Of a DNA stretch of 64,000 nucleotides, positions 53,553-64,000 are shown in pieces (the first letter of the stretch is position 1; each line of letters opens with the position of its first letter). The DNA comes from a virus. Made by a program: the position numbers and the translations under genes. Below the pieces are notes generated by a model that saw nothing but the letters and a program-made list of their open reading frames with translations, was not told where the DNA came from and ran no database searches. The stretch is taken from IMG/VR virus record IMGVR_UViG_3300021957_000025, positions 1-64,000 of that record. One strand, given 5' to 3'.

Positions 53553-54626
53553 TTAACTCGCATCTGTAGTCCTATCGCCTGCAAAACTTCTAGTAGAACC
53601 ATCATCATAAAACGTTACTGTCTCTGCAACAACAAAGGTGTCATCGGGATTGACCGAACCAACAAACTTAAGATTGGTTTTTGCATCTAGTGTCACTGCA
53701 CTTGATACTACAATACTTTGTTTGTCCTCAGCAATAGAGGATATAGTTGGATTCGTTCCTAAATTGGTACCGAACACTTCATCGTTTACACTTATCTTTG
53801 TATTTATTGCTGTTGGGAATGTTATTGTGGTGGACGAAGATACTGCATTTGAAACAGCTGCAAAAGCTGGTTCATATGATTTGACCTCTTTAACCAATCC
53901 ACTGTCTTCTATTTCACTGGTAGTGAATAGACCACTTGCAGTCTTAACTTGTCCTTGCACTCCGTCTGATATGTATGTTCTTTCGATAACATTCTTAATA
54001 ATTTCACCAGTATATACTGGGCCGAAGAAGTACAGTTTCATCTGAAACTCCAATGTGTATTCTATAACACGTCTTTCTTCGAACGTACCTTCGTATTGGT
54101 CTTCCATTGATACGGAACTTAGAATAATTGGAACATCTCTATGGTCTGTCATAGAATCAATCATCTTCATAGTAACCGTATATTCGGGTTGGAAATATGG
54201 CAGTATTTGTTCTACTATTTGTAGTGCATCATTCATGTTCTTTGCAAGAATTGATAGACTAAATGTTAAATTGTATGGTGCTGGTTGATACTGAAATCCT
54301 CTCTTTCCTGTATCTGAACTTTCCAAATCGGATTTAGTATGTCGTATTAGTTTATTTTGTTGTCTAGATGCATCATATTCAAACCCTGTAAGTTCGAATG
54401 CAAGTCTAGGCATACTAATTGCAGTTCTCATACCATCACCAAGGTCAGCATCTTCTGCTAGTCTTTGCAAGAACTTTTGTTTTGGCCCGTATGATATTGG
54501 TACCTTTTGTTCTGTTAGAACTGTACCATCTGATTTGGTTTTCTTAATTGTAATGTTATTGAACAGTGTTCCAAAAATGGATACTGCTCGTTTGAAAGTT
54601 TCATTATAAAAATAGGTACCGAACAT
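53553..54626 (-). CDS. 15: Tail sheath stabiliser (gp15)
   Basis: 357 aa (T4 gp15 272). MFGTYFYNETFKRAVSIFGT and the VEQILPYFQPEYTVTMK segment are conserved. The C-terminal 120 residues (after about 240) are an extension rich in T and S, absent in T4. Terminates the tail and joins it to the neck. Confidence 0.92.
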   Translation of the reverse strand: MFGTYFYNETFKRAVSIFGTLFNNITIKKTKSDGTVLTEQKVPISYGPKQKFLQRLAEDADLGDGMRTAISMPRLAFELTGFEYDASRQQNKLIRHTKSDLESSDTGKRGFQYQPAPYNLTFSLSILAKNMNDALQIVEQILPYFQPEYTVTMKMIDSMTDHRDVPIILSSVSMEDQYEGTFEERRVIEYTLEFQMKLYFFGPVYTGEIIKNVIERTYISDGVQGQVKTASGLFTTSEIEDSGLVKEVKSYEPAFAAVSNAVSSSTTITFPTAINTKISVNDEVFGTNLGTNPTISSIAEDKQSIVVSSAVTLDAKTNLKFVGSVNPDDTFVVAETVTFYDDGSTRSFAGDRTTDAS

Positions 54627-55489
54627 TATGTGACCTCACCGAATGGGTTAGTCTCTGAGAAATCTAAGTATCCATCTGCCTTGTCTTCAAAGTCTTTATT
54701 CTGTGCATCACCATCATTAGCAAACGTTAGCACGTCTGTAATCGATTCTATGACCACTGTCTTACCACTTGATGCACCAACTAGGGTGTCACCAACTGCA
54801 AGTGTTCTAGTGACATCTTTGATAGTAAGTTTACGGATATTCCCAGTTGGGCCAGGTGTCCAACCAATGACTTCACCTGTTGCAGCTCCACTATAATTAA
54901 GAACCTCTTGAATCACAAAGTCTCCACTTGTATTTGAAACTTGCATTTCTATAGTATAGGCTTGTTCGTTCTCCACTAAGTCTACCACTGTTCCAGTATC
55001 GAAATCTTCTCCACTGTATTCGAATAATTCACACTGCAGTTTGAATACAAACAGTTTTCCAACTTGATAGAATGGATTCTCATGTTCTACGAATTTTATT
55101 TCGAACATTGAACCACTCATAGGGAAGTAAATTAAATCACCTTCGTTGGGTCTCAATGATGTTGTAAGGTTTGAATCTAGTGATATGAATCTTTCCCATG
55201 TTCTTAGGGATATAACGAATGTTGCTTGGTCTCTTACTTGTACACCGAACTTGGACATGAGGTCTCCATCACCTTCAAATCCATCTGTATTTTCTAGATA
55301 CATCTCTACTGAGTACGCATCTCCAAATTTAGACTGCACATCTTCACCAAGAATCGTGTCTTCTTCTACAATCTCTCTTGGTAGATAATACGTCTCGTGT
55401 CCAAACATCCTAAGTGACTCAACAACGATGTCTTCATATAACATCTGTTCAGTATTAACTGCATGGTTAAAAAATACATTTGTCGGCAT
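54626..55489 (-). CDS. 14: Neck protein gp14
   Basis: 287 aa (T4 gp14 256). NVFFNHAVNTEQMLYEDIVV and GHETYYLPREIVEEDTILGE are typical. Forms the head-tail neck with gp13. Shares its last base with the gp15 start. Confidence 0.92.
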   Translation of the reverse strand: MPTNVFFNHAVNTEQMLYEDIVVESLRMFGHETYYLPREIVEEDTILGEDVQSKFGDAYSVEMYLENTDGFEGDGDLMSKFGVQVRDQATFVISLRTWERFISLDSNLTTSLRPNEGDLIYFPMSGSMFEIKFVEHENPFYQVGKLFVFKLQCELFEYSGEDFDTGTVVDLVENEQAYTIEMQVSNTSGDFVIQEVLNYSGAATGEVIGWTPGPTGNIRKLTIKDVTRTLAVGDTLVGASSGKTVVIESITDVLTFANDGDAQNKDFEDKADGYLDFSETNPFGEVT

Positions 55490-55493
55490 GTTT

Positions 55494-56309
55494 TTATCCC
55501 ATTAAGTCCATGACTGGCATTTCAAAATTCAGTCTTGACTCTTCTTCTAATCTTGTAATTTCCTCTTGTGCTTCGGACTTCATCTGTGCAGCGTCTAATG
55601 TAACACCGCCCGGCAATGCAATTCCCGAAAACTTTGATAGGTTTTCACCCCACTGATACTTAACTAATGCAGTACAGTATTTCTTCAACCACATGTCATT
55701 GTATACGTCTGTCATGTCTGTTGGGTCAATCTTTCTATAACATTCAATGATTAAGAACTCACCAGCAGTCAAACTGGATGCATCCAAATCTAGATACAAT
55801 CTATTAGAATGCATGTTGTATCTTAAAGGTGTTCTTCCAACTAGAATATTATTCATCATTGAAAGGTTCTGTTGCATCATTTCATAATGTAAAACGTTGG
55901 TTGAAGATAAGTCATACATGTCATTCAATCTTAATTGATATCTTAAGTCAAACATATTAAGGTTTGATTTATCATTGAATGGTAAAATGTTTATAACAGA
56001 TAGTACATGTTCGGGTAAGGTAAGATAGTTCTGTTGTTCTTTGTAAGTTTGTCCATCTATCACATGTCCACCTGCTGTAGCTGCAGAATGGGATTCGTTT
56101 GTTGTGAATGAGTCTATCTGATTTTGAGTTAGTTCGTGCTTAAGAAAACACTTCACACTACCATCATAGCAGTATTCTCTAAAGTATTGAAGGCCTTCGT
56201 CAATTCTGTCATCGAACTGGTCATCATCCACGTTGATTTCCAACACAGGTGCGCCTAGTCTTCTCTTGACATACTCTTTGAGGGTTGCTTTTGAATTGGG
56301 TTCTGCCAT
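55494..56309 (-). CDS. 13: Neck protein gp13
   Basis: 271 aa (T4 gp13 309). LKEYVKRRLGAPVLEINVDD, QFDDRIDEGLQYFREYCYDG and KKYCTALVKYQWGENLSKF are conserved gp13 blocks. ACAGGAAA precedes the ATG and a late-type box lies 22 nt upstream. Confidence 0.93.
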   Translation of the reverse strand: MAEPNSKATLKEYVKRRLGAPVLEINVDDDQFDDRIDEGLQYFREYCYDGSVKCFLKHELTQNQIDSFTTNESHSAATAGGHVIDGQTYKEQQNYLTLPEHVLSVINILPFNDKSNLNMFDLRYQLRLNDMYDLSSTNVLHYEMMQQNLSMMNNILVGRTPLRYNMHSNRLYLDLDASSLTAGEFLIIECYRKIDPTDMTDVYNDMWLKKYCTALVKYQWGENLSKFSGIALPGGVTLDAAQMKSEAQEEITRLEEESRLNFEMPVMDLMG

Positions 56310-61116: not shown

Positions 61117-62559
61117 CTATGATGTAATTGGGGTTGCAGGCCACTGTTGTGAACCAACTCCATCCCATCTTGCTTCGGGGGTTTGACCCTGTCTTGCATA
61201 CGTGAATGGACTTCTATGTTGATACGTAAATGGAGTCTGACCAGTTCTTTGATATGTGAACGGACTTCTATGTTGATACGTAAACGGTGTTCGACCCTGT
61301 CTTGCATACGTGAATGGAGACCTGTGCTGATAAGTGAACGGTGTTTGACCTGTTCTCTGATAAGTAAACGGAGTCTGTGCATTACGTATATTAGGTTCTT
61401 GAGCAGCTGCAATGTATGGATACGGTTGCTGTGCATCTCTAATATTAGGTTCTTGAGCATTCACTGGATTCTGATAAGTGAACGGTGACCTATGCTGATA
61501 TGTAGCAGGTTGACGTGCATTACTAGGATTCTGATAAGTGAACGGACTTCTATATTGATAAGTAAACGGAGTCTGAGCATTACGTATATTAGGCTCCTGT
61601 TGACTTCTAATATTAGGTTCTTGTGCATTTCTAATATTAGGTTCTTGAGCAGATACAGGGTTCCTATATGTAAATGGAGACCTATGACTGTACGTAAACG
61701 GAGTCTGAGCATTACGTATATTAGGCTCCTGTTGACTTCTAATATTAGGTTCTTGTGCAGAACGTATATTAGGTTCTTGAGCAGATACAGGGTTCCTATA
61801 TGTAAATGGAGACCTATGACTGTACGTAAACGGTGTTTGACTGTTTCTAATATTAGGTTCCTGTTGACTTCTAATATTAGGTTGTTGAGCAGCTCTAATG
61901 TTCGGTTCTTGTGCAGATACAGGGTTCCTATAAGTGAAAGGTGACCTGTGCTGATAAGTGAACGGAGTCTGAGCATTACGTATATTAGGTTCCTGTTGAC
62001 TTCTAATATTAGGTTGTTGTGCTGACCTTATGTTTGGTTCTTGTGCAGATACAGGGTTCCTGTAAGTGAACGGACTTCTATATTGATAAGTAAACGGTGC
62101 TTGATTACTTCTAATATTAGGTTCTTGCTGACTTCTAATATTAGGTTCTTGTGCCGAACGTATATTAGGTTCTTGTGCAGATACAGGGTTCCTGTACGTA
62201 AATGGTGACCTATGGTTATAAGTAAACGGAGACCTATGACTGTACGTAAATGGACTCCTTGCATTATTAGGTTGTCTCGCAGACATAGGATGTCTGTAAG
62301 TAAACGGATTCTGAAACGTAAACGGTTGCTGAGCATTCGCTGGATATCTTGCACTATATGTAAATGGTGCTTGGAACGTAAACGGTTGCTGTGCATTCGC
62401 GGGATATCTTGCACTATACGTAAATGGTGTCTGTACATTTGCAGCGTTAGGTTGCTGTCCATTCGCTGGATATCTTGCACTATAAGTGAAAGGATTTTGC
62501 GATGCCACAGATTGCTGTCTGTTAGCAGTGTATGGTTGTTGTCTGTTACCTATTGGCAT
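61117..62559 (-). CDS. R/P/Q-rich tandem-repeat protein with 44-residue units
   Basis: 480 aa. After the start MPIGNRQQPYTANRQQS, the chain is built of short phrases ending in P: xxPFTYxHRS, PFTYRNPVSAQEP, NIRSAQEPNIRSQQEP, NIRNAQTP. The phrases make a 44-residue unit repeated at exact 132-bp spacing (see the repeat entry). No Cys, few Lys, Arg-rich, with a unique end (EARWDGVGSQQWPATPITS). No signal peptide or known fold. Location among late virion genes suggests a structural fibre or coat component, as inference. Confidence 0.75.
   Translation of the reverse strand: MPIGNRQQPYTANRQQSVASQNPFTYSARYPANGQQPNAANVQTPFTYSARYPANAQQPFTFQAPFTYSARYPANAQQPFTFQNPFTYRHPMSARQPNNARSPFTYSHRSPFTYNHRSPFTYRNPVSAQEPNIRSAQEPNIRSQQEPNIRSNQAPFTYQYRSPFTYRNPVSAQEPNIRSAQQPNIRSQQEPNIRNAQTPFTYQHRSPFTYRNPVSAQEPNIRAAQQPNIRSQQEPNIRNSQTPFTYSHRSPFTYRNPVSAQEPNIRSAQEPNIRSQQEPNIRNAQTPFTYSHRSPFTYRNPVSAQEPNIRNAQEPNIRSQQEPNIRNAQTPFTYQYRSPFTYQNPSNARQPATYQHRSPFTYQNPVNAQEPNIRDAQQPYPYIAAAQEPNIRNAQTPFTYQRTGQTPFTYQHRSPFTYARQGRTPFTYQHRSPFTYQRTGQTPFTYQHRSPFTYARQGQTPEARWDGVGSQQWPATPITS
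61651..62190 (-). repeat. 132-bp tandem repeat array
   Basis: The marker agatacaggg (plus strand) occurs at 61651, 61783, 61915, 62047 and 62179, always 132 bp apart (44 codons). Units differ in a few bases and in the PNIR/PFTY phrase content. Flanking, less regular repeats extend to both sides. Confidence 0.9.
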
Positions 62560-62606
62560 CTGTAACTCCTGTTAATTTAGTATTATATCTTTTCATAGTC
62601 ATCGGC

Positions 62607-64000
62607 TTATGGTTCACAGAAGTTACCCCCACCAAACGGACTTCCATACGAGAAGTAGTAGGTGAATGGGAATCTAGCGTTATACTGTTGTGGTGACTGT
62701 GAGATAACAGGTTGTCTAGCATTTGCAATATACGGTACTCTATAAGTGAACGGACTCCTTGAATTGGATATTGAAGGTTGTCTTGCATTAGCAATGTAAG
62801 GTACTCTGTATGTAAATGGATTCCTTGCACTATTCGGTTGTCTTGCATTAGCAATGTACGGCACTCTGTATGTAAATGGGTTCCTCGCATTATTCGGTTG
62901 TCTTGCATTACTTGGTTGTTGATAAGTAAATGGTGCTTGGAATGTAAACGGTTGTTGAGCATTCTTAATCGTAGGTTGCTGAGCATTCTTAATCGTAGGT
63001 TGCTGTGCAGATACAGGACTTCTATACGTAAATGGAGACCTATGACTGTACGTATATGGAGACCTATGACTATAAGTTAACGGACTTCTATGTTGGTACG
63101 TAGAAGGTTGCCTTGCACTACGTATGTTTGGCTCTTGAGCAGATACAGGACTTCTATACGTAAATGGAGACCTATGTTGATACGTAAACGGAGACCTATG
63201 ACTATATGTTAAAGGTGACCTATGCTGATATGTAGAAGGTTGACGTGCATCTCTAATATTAGGTTCTTGTGCAGATACAGGACTTCTATAAGTGAACGGA
63301 GACCTATGTTGATAAGTAAACGGAGACCTGTGACTATATGTTAACGGTGACCTATGTTGATACGTAGCAGGTTGTCTTGCATCACGTATATTAGGCTCTT
63401 GTCCATTCACTGGACTTCTATATGTAAATGGAGACCTATGACTGTACGTATATGGAGACCTGTGACTATATGTTAACGGTGACCTATGTTGATACGTAGA
63501 AGGTTGACGTGCATCTCTAATATTAGGTTCTTGAGCATTCACTGGACTTCTATATGTAAATGGAGACCTATGACTGTACGTATATGGAGACCTATGATTA
63601 TAAGTTAACGGACTTCTATGTTGATACGTAGAAGGTTGTCTTGCATCACGTATATTAGGCTCTTGTCCATTCACTGGATTTCTATAAGTGAAAGGTGTTT
63701 GACTATTACGTATATTAGGTTCTTGTCCATTCACTGGGTTTCTATAAGTGAAAGGAGACCTATGTTGATACGTAAATGGTGTTTGTCCCTGTCTAGCATA
63801 TGTAAAAGGACTTCTATGTTGATACGTAGAAGGTTGTCTTGCATTTGCTATATAAGGGTACGGTTGTTGTGCTGACCTTATGTTTGGTTCTTGTCCATTC
63901 GCTATATAAGGATACGGTTGTTGTGCATCTCTTATGTTTGGTTGTTGTGCATTTGCAATATAAGGATACGGTTGTTGTGCATCCCTTATGTTTGGTTGTT
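62607..64000 (-). CDS. R/P/Q-rich tandem-repeat protein, partial (start beyond right edge)
   Basis: At least 464 codons; the frame is still open at the right edge, so the true start is outside. Same phrase set as the neighbour (HRSPLTYSHRSPYTYSHRSP, QEPNIRDARQPSTYQ) plus PYPYIANAQQP phrases at its N-terminal side. It ends in a unique tail ...FPFTYYFSYGSPFGGGNFCEP. Units are again 132 bp apart. Two adjacent paralogues imply duplication. Role unknown, probably a late structural protein. Confidence 0.75.
   Translation of the reverse strand, partial: QPNIRDAQQPYPYIANAQQPNIRDAQQPYPYIANGQEPNIRSAQQPYPYIANARQPSTYQHRSPFTYARQGQTPFTYQHRSPFTYRNPVNGQEPNIRNSQTPFTYRNPVNGQEPNIRDARQPSTYQHRSPLTYNHRSPYTYSHRSPFTYRSPVNAQEPNIRDARQPSTYQHRSPLTYSHRSPYTYSHRSPFTYRSPVNGQEPNIRDARQPATYQHRSPLTYSHRSPFTYQHRSPFTYRSPVSAQEPNIRDARQPSTYQHRSPLTYSHRSPFTYQHRSPFTYRSPVSAQEPNIRSARQPSTYQHRSPLTYSHRSPYTYSHRSPFTYRSPVSAQQPTIKNAQQPTIKNAQQPFTFQAPFTYQQPSNARQPNNARNPFTYRVPYIANARQPNSARNPFTYRVPYIANARQPSISNSRSPFTYRVPYIANARQPVISQSPQQYNARFPFTYYFSYGSPFGGGNFCEP
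63009..63690 (-). repeat. 132-bp tandem repeat array in the second repeat gene
   Basis: The ggact/ggatt marker lies at 63016, 63148, 63280, 63412, 63544 and 63676, all 132 bp apart, so both genes share one unit length. The next marker, at 63736, is only 60 bp on, where a shortened unit begins. Confidence 0.88.

Follow-up and report, generated by a model that had tools for sequence, protein, structure and literature searches.

What are two neighbouring phage genes built from proline-centred repeats for, and what ties them to the enzyme genes that follow? The question arises in a viral contig of 65,155 bp (IMG/VR record IMGVR_UViG_3300021957_000025), of which bases 1-64000, the window, were analysed. 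The source is an uncultured marine T4-like phage, and the phages that bear such repeats form one uncultured clade beside the pelagimyophages. The two genes, ORF1 and ORF2 (open reading frames), encode proline-repeat (P-repeat) proteins and are followed by a cassette, C1-C5, that includes a predicted glycosyltransferase and two 2-oxoglutarate (2OG)-Fe(II) oxygenases. Oxygenases of this kind are common, largely unexplained genes of marine T4-like phages. The repeats of ORF1 and ORF2 are under purifying selection at the protein level, and a repeat gene stands directly upstream of C1 in every interpretable locus (401/401). On a tentative reading, given slightly less than an even chance, ORF1 and ORF2 would be late tail-fibre or adhesin proteins modified by the enzymes of the adjacent cassette.

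Two repeat proteins under protein-level selection

All genes in this part of the window lie on the minus strand. ORF1 (61117..62559) encodes a type-B P-repeat protein of 480 amino acids (aa), with repeats over nearly its whole length and a conserved C-terminus, TPEARWDGVGSQQWPATPITS. ORF2 (62607..64000 in the window, with its start outside the window at contig position 64187) encodes a type-A P-repeat protein of 526 aa, 463 of them inside the window. It runs from an N-terminal domain, MATGSQKVKTPAGWNSTQGAWVKTGSSTWKAVDQIYIKTPTGWN, through the repeats to a Gly/aromatic C-terminus, and a 27-member alignment of this type has invariant N-terminal columns.

Each protein is a run of [RQ]-x-P-x-[TINS]-[YRAGF] units, its prolines mostly 6 or 8 residues apart. 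ORF1 has 33 proline spacings of 8, 22 of 6, and 4 of 10, and ORF2 has 37 of 8, 23 of 6, and 4 of 2; these counts bear out the 6- or 8-residue proline steps described in an earlier note on this DNA. Across 97 unique relatives, the consensus unit reads P-x-[TINS]-[YRAGF]-(two optional residues)-[RQ]-x, and in 98-99% of the units of 6 or 8 residues R or Q stands two positions before the proline. Even spacings make up 92-95% in this set, and no more than 23-40% are multiples of 3, chiefly the 6s. The composition is of low complexity and of a Q/R/N/Y character, with 13% Pro, 1.7% Gly in ORF1 and 2.8% in ORF2, and no Lys in ORF1.

Each gene contains a 132-nt (44-aa) tandem array of about five units, at 61559..62231 in ORF1 and 63016..63686 in ORF2. 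With a Tandem Repeats Finder threshold of 50, the first array scores 866 at period 132, and the second scores 890 at period 132 and 1042 at period 264. The earlier note had described adjacent genes of exact repeats at constant 132-bp spacing; adjacency and spacing hold, and exactness does not, as the units differ from one another at 14-29 of 132 nt. The same units differ at just 2-7 of 44 residues. Codon use in the repeats is varied (four Pro codons, for example), and the nonsynonymous rate (dN) is below the synonymous rate (dS) in 16/16 unit pairs, with a median ratio of about 0.1. The repeats are therefore selected coding repeats, in which the DNA drifted while the protein was kept, and a recent expansion of DNA alone is ruled out by dN/dS.

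Whole 44-aa units are likely gained and lost between close relatives, as judged from contigs with 98.7-99.9% identity in their flanks. ORF1-type proteins of 496, 540, and 584 aa occur in one such group and of 416 and 372 aa in a second, and ORF2-type proteins are 585 or 497 aa long; the differences of 44 or 88 residues equal one or two units. This supports the variation in copy number predicted earlier, in a comparison of short-read assemblies whose shorter forms may reflect repeat collapse. The 540-aa ORF1-type and 585-aa ORF2-type genes were each assembled more than once, in separate contigs whose flanks are nearly identical, which makes random misassembly less likely. Change by whole units would be a simple route to variation in fibre length.

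A collagen or polyproline-II register was rejected on the even proline spacing, the lack of Gly-X-Y, and the low Gly content; it is unlikely from the spacing pattern, in which multiples of three have no excess apart from the 6s. The Gly-rich (polyglycine-II) class of phage adhesins likewise does not fit the Gly content of either protein. The even proline register would be compatible with an extended beta-type alternation. AlphaFold2, run on ORF1 with 32 homologues, gave a mean confidence (pLDDT) of 34 and no secondary structure. The rigid, rod-like chain proposed in the earlier note finds no support in this prediction or in prolines at even steps that are not multiples of 3, and since AlphaFold2 yielded no structure, it establishes neither a rod nor disorder for ORF1.

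No Pfam, PHROG, NCBIfam, or PDB family accounts for ORF1 or ORF2, and no solved relative is detectable by sequence. Searches of cultured phages with whole ORF1, the type-A N-terminus, the type-B C-terminus, and a type-D protein returned no matches or matches at chance level, the whole-protein searches being limited by the low-complexity filter of BLAST. At E 10, ORF2 drew just weak low-complexity matches, including one to Vibrio phage F23s1 at 1e-7. HU, OB_DEPS-1, phrog_37541, and other low scorers were rejected as matches of periodicity or composition without an aligned stretch. Cementoin (PF10511, a domain of GQ[DE]PVK hexapeptides in the transglutaminase substrate trappin), grouped with them, reached whole-protein scores of 29.1 and 28.6 bits against a cutoff of 27, with a stretch count of 0 for ORF1; simple hexapeptide periodicity probably accounts for these scores. 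The family is thus undescribed in the libraries searched, in agreement with the earlier view that no known family matches, and its phage origin also stands. Related stretches in viral contigs number 208 in one scan and 128 in a second.

Gene neighbourhood and enzyme cassette

The setting of the repeat genes in a tail-fibre cluster, and the oxygenase and glycosyltransferase cassette that always follows them, had gone unmentioned in the earlier note. The 401 loci represent 96 distinct C1 proteins, which form 70 clusters at 95% identity and 16 at 60%. C1-C5 are complete in all 81 loci with room for them, and the order of the cassette is kept in 42 non-redundant loci though the enzymes diverge to 40-47% identity. 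In 30 Mosig-like loci of the sister lineage where 4 kb or more upstream of gp13 was available, neither the repeats nor C1 occur.

The clade has four types of P-repeat protein, A-D. Type A, represented by ORF2, is marked by a GWN...AWVKT domain at the N-terminus, and some members carry a Hint/intein-like C-terminus. Type B, represented by ORF1, is marked by a conserved C-terminus, RWDG...QQWP. Types C and D lie several kb upstream, past the tail-fibre genes. The full gene order is VrlC-like C18, C19, C20, type C, type D, C14, (C15), three to four C12 tail fibres, C13, C11, type A, type B, C1, C2, C3, C4, C5, C9, gp13, gp14, gp15, with small extra genes between A and B in some loci. In the window, gp13 (head-tail adaptor), gp14 (neck), and gp15 (tail sheath stabiliser) occupy 53553..56309 and anchor the module in the structural region. 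In all long loci, types A-D are intermixed with the tail-fibre genes in the stretch from VrlC-like C18 to gp13/14, and so are encoded within the VrlC-gp14 interval that constitutes the host recognition cluster of pelagimyophages (Zaragoza-Solas et al., PMC7029224).

A branch of the gp13 tree sets the repeat-bearing phages apart, with HTVC008M, Melnitz, and Mosig as their neighbours; its support of 78/68 is not firm. The closest cultured relatives by capsid are Melnitz (67%), HTVC008M (64.5%), and Mosig (64%), and no P-repeats occur in the host-recognition regions of these three phages.

Several loci show variants of the repeat proteins. A Hint/intein-like domain, with VHNF or VAHNF near the C-terminus, ends the type-A proteins L033:5617-7938, L042:5888-7987, and L563:8582-9796. 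Hint PF14890 scores 32.1 and 31.1 bits in L033 and L042 (E about 1e-7), under the cutoff of 35.8, and the domain was not found in ORF2 of the window; it seems to have been gained and lost at the type-A C-terminus. At L152:4323-7050, some proteins of types C and D lack the regular proline spacing and keep the vocabulary (PYIANAQQP, PFTYRNP), which suggests repeat decay at a second locus. The sole match in a genome collection is L563 (JAAXIF010000105.1, 121 kb), a metagenome-assembled genome contig labelled Sphingobacteriales that carries the whole module with the order of A and B swapped and a type-B protein of just 190 aa. Probably it is phage DNA that was binned with a bacterial genome, or else it hints at the host.

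C1 (59475..61052) is a 525-aa protein with a C-terminal GT-A (GT8/GT24-type) glycosyltransferase domain that contains an invariant FxDDD; its N-terminal half has no assigned fold. A longer start, giving an ORF of 661 aa, falls in the wrong frame of the repeats. The glycosyltransferase domain is modelled by AlphaFold2 at a mean pLDDT of 83 as a GT-A fold carrying the DxD motif. It matches the WbbM, GT8, glycogenin, GlyE, LgtC, and UGGT folds at tied Z scores of 13-14, with root-mean-square deviations of 3.2-4.0 over 180-215 residues. Against PF01501, C1 of the window scores 21.7 bits, below the gathering score of 24.3, and E values of 0.01 or better are reached by 18 of the 21 members. The VIA-align rows for C1 spanned residues 287-525.

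C3 (58178..58882) is a 2OG-Fe(II) oxygenase with an invariant HxD...H and Arg: H128, D130, H198, and R212 are unchanged in 17 members, and PF13640 scores above its cutoff. Its top PDB profile matches are to prolyl 4-hydroxylase (E 0.0047) and HIF prolyl hydroxylase (E 0.11), both weak and restricted to the core. C5 (56624..57334) is a second 2OG-Fe(II) oxygenase (PF13759/TIGR02466) with an invariant HxH...H and Arg (H118, H120, H181, R192), scoring 95.4 bits for TIGR02466 (cutoff 62.5) and 76 bits for PF13759 (cutoff 27). C2 (58886..59443) is a 185-aa protein always present in the cassette. C4 (57331..58197) is a 288-aa protein (phrog_7084) with relatives in cyanophages and haloarchaeal tailed viruses; it has no Pfam match above cutoff and a PDB profile match at E 0.62. 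Relatives of C4 occur in dozens of haloarchaeal tailed viruses (HF1, HF2, HRTV, HCTV), near baseplate genes in HF2. C9 (56346..56606), a small protein of 86 aa with an N-terminal hydrophobic stretch, is part of the conserved order.

Between ORF1 and C1 (61058..61095, approximate ends, minus strand) lies an intrinsic-terminator-like hairpin (CCCCTCGAAAGAGGGG-T8) and, after it, a late-promoter-like CTAAATA. A late-promoter-like [ACT]TAAATA stands upstream of C1 in 32 of the 42 loci. Of the 13 minus-strand TAAATA sites in the structural half of the window, 6 lie no more than 60 nt from a gene start, versus 0.7 expected. Because of these promoter-like motifs, the cassette is probably transcribed late, like the structural genes.

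Candidate roles of the repeat proteins

We infer a virion location, late timing, and a host-recognition role for ORF1 and ORF2. It is hypothesized that the cassette hydroxylates or glycosylates the repeat chains and that the residue chosen is Pro, Tyr, Thr, or Arg. What the sequences do show is the anatomy of the repeats, purifying selection on them, their place among fibre genes, the strict linkage to the cassette, and the conserved catalytic residues of the enzymes. The weak prolyl-4-hydroxylase match of C3, the GT-A fold of C1, the late-promoter-like motifs, and the Hint domains of some type-A proteins also speak for this reading. The chain would then be extended, with folded ends and a length that can be adjusted, the two-residue register of its repeat body kept as 44-aa units come and go. 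The C3 and C5 oxygenases and the C1 glycosyltransferase, together with C2 and C4, would hydroxylate and/or glycosylate the chains during synthesis, and the modification would stiffen the fibre, protect it, or set its binding. A narrower version, in which the A-D chains are hydroxylated at their invariant prolines (or at Tyr/Arg) by the 2OG oxygenases and receive sugar from C1, so that the phage makes its own modified adhesins, is rather unlikely.

Several observations weigh against modification by the cassette. All loci belong to one clade, so the linkage is possibly due in part to common descent and may preserve a single ancestral gene order. 2OG oxygenases also occupy the corresponding position in HTVC008M, Mosig, and Sf-FP1, where P-repeats are absent, which indicates that oxygenases there do not require a P-repeat substrate. 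The fold neighbours of C1 tie lipopolysaccharide enzymes (LgtC, WbbM) with protein-modifying ones, so that the fold match does not fix the acceptor. The prolyl-4-hydroxylase match of C3 has the weakness given above, and a terminator-like hairpin stands between ORF1 and C1 in 17 of 42 loci, the window among them.

Some of these points would fit an account in which the repeat proteins are tail-fibre or adhesin parts and the neighbouring enzymes act elsewhere, either on host surface sugars against coinfection or on metabolites and 2-oxoglutarate balance, with a cluster shared by history. It is possible, though the chances are against it. GT8 enzymes of the host recognition cluster have been proposed to modify the host O-chain (PMC7029224), and cyanophage 2OG oxygenases to modulate 2OG levels (PMC3037559). 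The oxygenases of HTVC008M, Mosig, and Sf-FP1, which stand with Gly-rich proteins instead, also favour it, as do the fold tie of C1 with LgtC and WbbM and the terminators between repeat genes and cassette. However, C1 with its own N-terminal half never occurs without a repeat gene directly upstream (96/96 distinct proteins), its place in a late-type unit would be late for blocking coinfection, and the five cassette genes hold their order through the divergence of the enzymes.

A function outside the virion is improbable. The repeat proteins would then be disordered late proteins, such as an assembly scaffold, a glue for progeny, or a decoy, in or outside the dying cell. The lack of predicted order in ORF1, the low-complexity composition, and the failure to find a characterised virion homologue point this way; the position of the repeat genes between tail-fibre and neck genes in every locus, the conserved non-repeat ends, and the Hint domains of some members speak against it. 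Trimeric fibre repeats are a frequent failure of AlphaFold2, and its low confidence is no proof of disorder. Scarcely any credence is left for the view that the repeats are a DNA-level artefact of recombination or misassembly and serve no purpose as protein. Tandem arrays readily cause assembly errors and unit number differs between close contigs, but the selection result contradicts this explanation, independent assemblies agree on the 540-aa and 585-aa forms, more than 200 related stretches occur in viral contigs, and one motif grammar is shared by the 97 unique repeat proteins examined. The most likely reading remains modification of late fibre or adhesin proteins by the cassette.

Known systems and neighbouring genes in related phages

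The Gly-rich (polyglycine-II type) adhesins of pelagimyophages and cyanophages, HTVC008M gp065 and Mosig_00062, occupy the same slot as the repeat genes, being the last tail-fibre-like genes before the oxygenases and gp13, and share a long low-complexity body. HTVC008M gp065 contains 33% Gly, in contrast to the few per cent of ORF1 and ORF2 with their abundant Pro, and no sequence similarity was found. The slot comparison rests on HTVC008M, Mosig, and Sf-FP1, because no Gly-rich ORF was found in the 30 Mosig-like control loci.

The mimivirus enzyme L230 is a lysyl hydroxylase and hydroxylysyl glucosyltransferase paired with collagen L71 (PMC9546862). Mimivirus collagens and L230 resemble the present gene set in that a virus encodes a Pro-containing repeat protein along with its own 2OG hydroxylase and glycosyltransferase. 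Unlike in mimivirus, there is no Gly-X-Y here and no Lys in ORF1, and the predicted enzymes are separate and belong to other subfamilies. By analogy, L230 and its collagen may serve as a model of how the cassette works, not of family membership.

The pelagimyophage host recognition cluster (PMC7029224) shares the position between VrlC and neck genes, the tail fibres, and a GT8-type glycosyltransferase. It is hypervariable, whereas the order here is fixed, and the four P-repeat proteins were not found described in that paper. The cyanophage 2OG-Fe(II) oxygenases (T4-GC families, PMC3037559) and EGLN3-like phage oxygenases (PMC12774648) belong to the same superfamily as C3 and C5. No substrate for them was found in the literature consulted, whereas a candidate substrate is directly linked here. 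A search of open-licence literature returned nothing on phage proline hydroxylation of fibres.

A P-repeat protein never apart from an oxygenase and glycosyltransferase set offers a concrete candidate substrate for marine-phage 2OG oxygenases. If the proposed modification is real, marine phages would use post-translational hydroxylation and glycosylation in building and varying the fibres that bind their hosts. The repeat proteins would then be a phage counterpart of hydroxyproline-rich glycoproteins, and some marine-phage 2OG oxygenases would have a virion protein as substrate.

Related phages carry further genes in this region. Tryptophan-halogenase-like genes lie among oxygenase and structural genes at L091:6467-8023 (Synechococcus phage Sf-FP1) and as HTVC008M gp079, and their products are possibly another modifier of virion proteins. 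An amidinotransferase-like gene (about 293 aa, start MLCSRDEWSPLREIVVG) is inserted in the tail-fibre cluster of L068 and L115, between C14 and the C12 tail fibres. An acyl-carrier-protein-like gene (about 71-73 aa, motif DDLGADSLHTVELV) lies between gp14 and gp15 in L012, L014, L020, L029, L031, L083, and L084.

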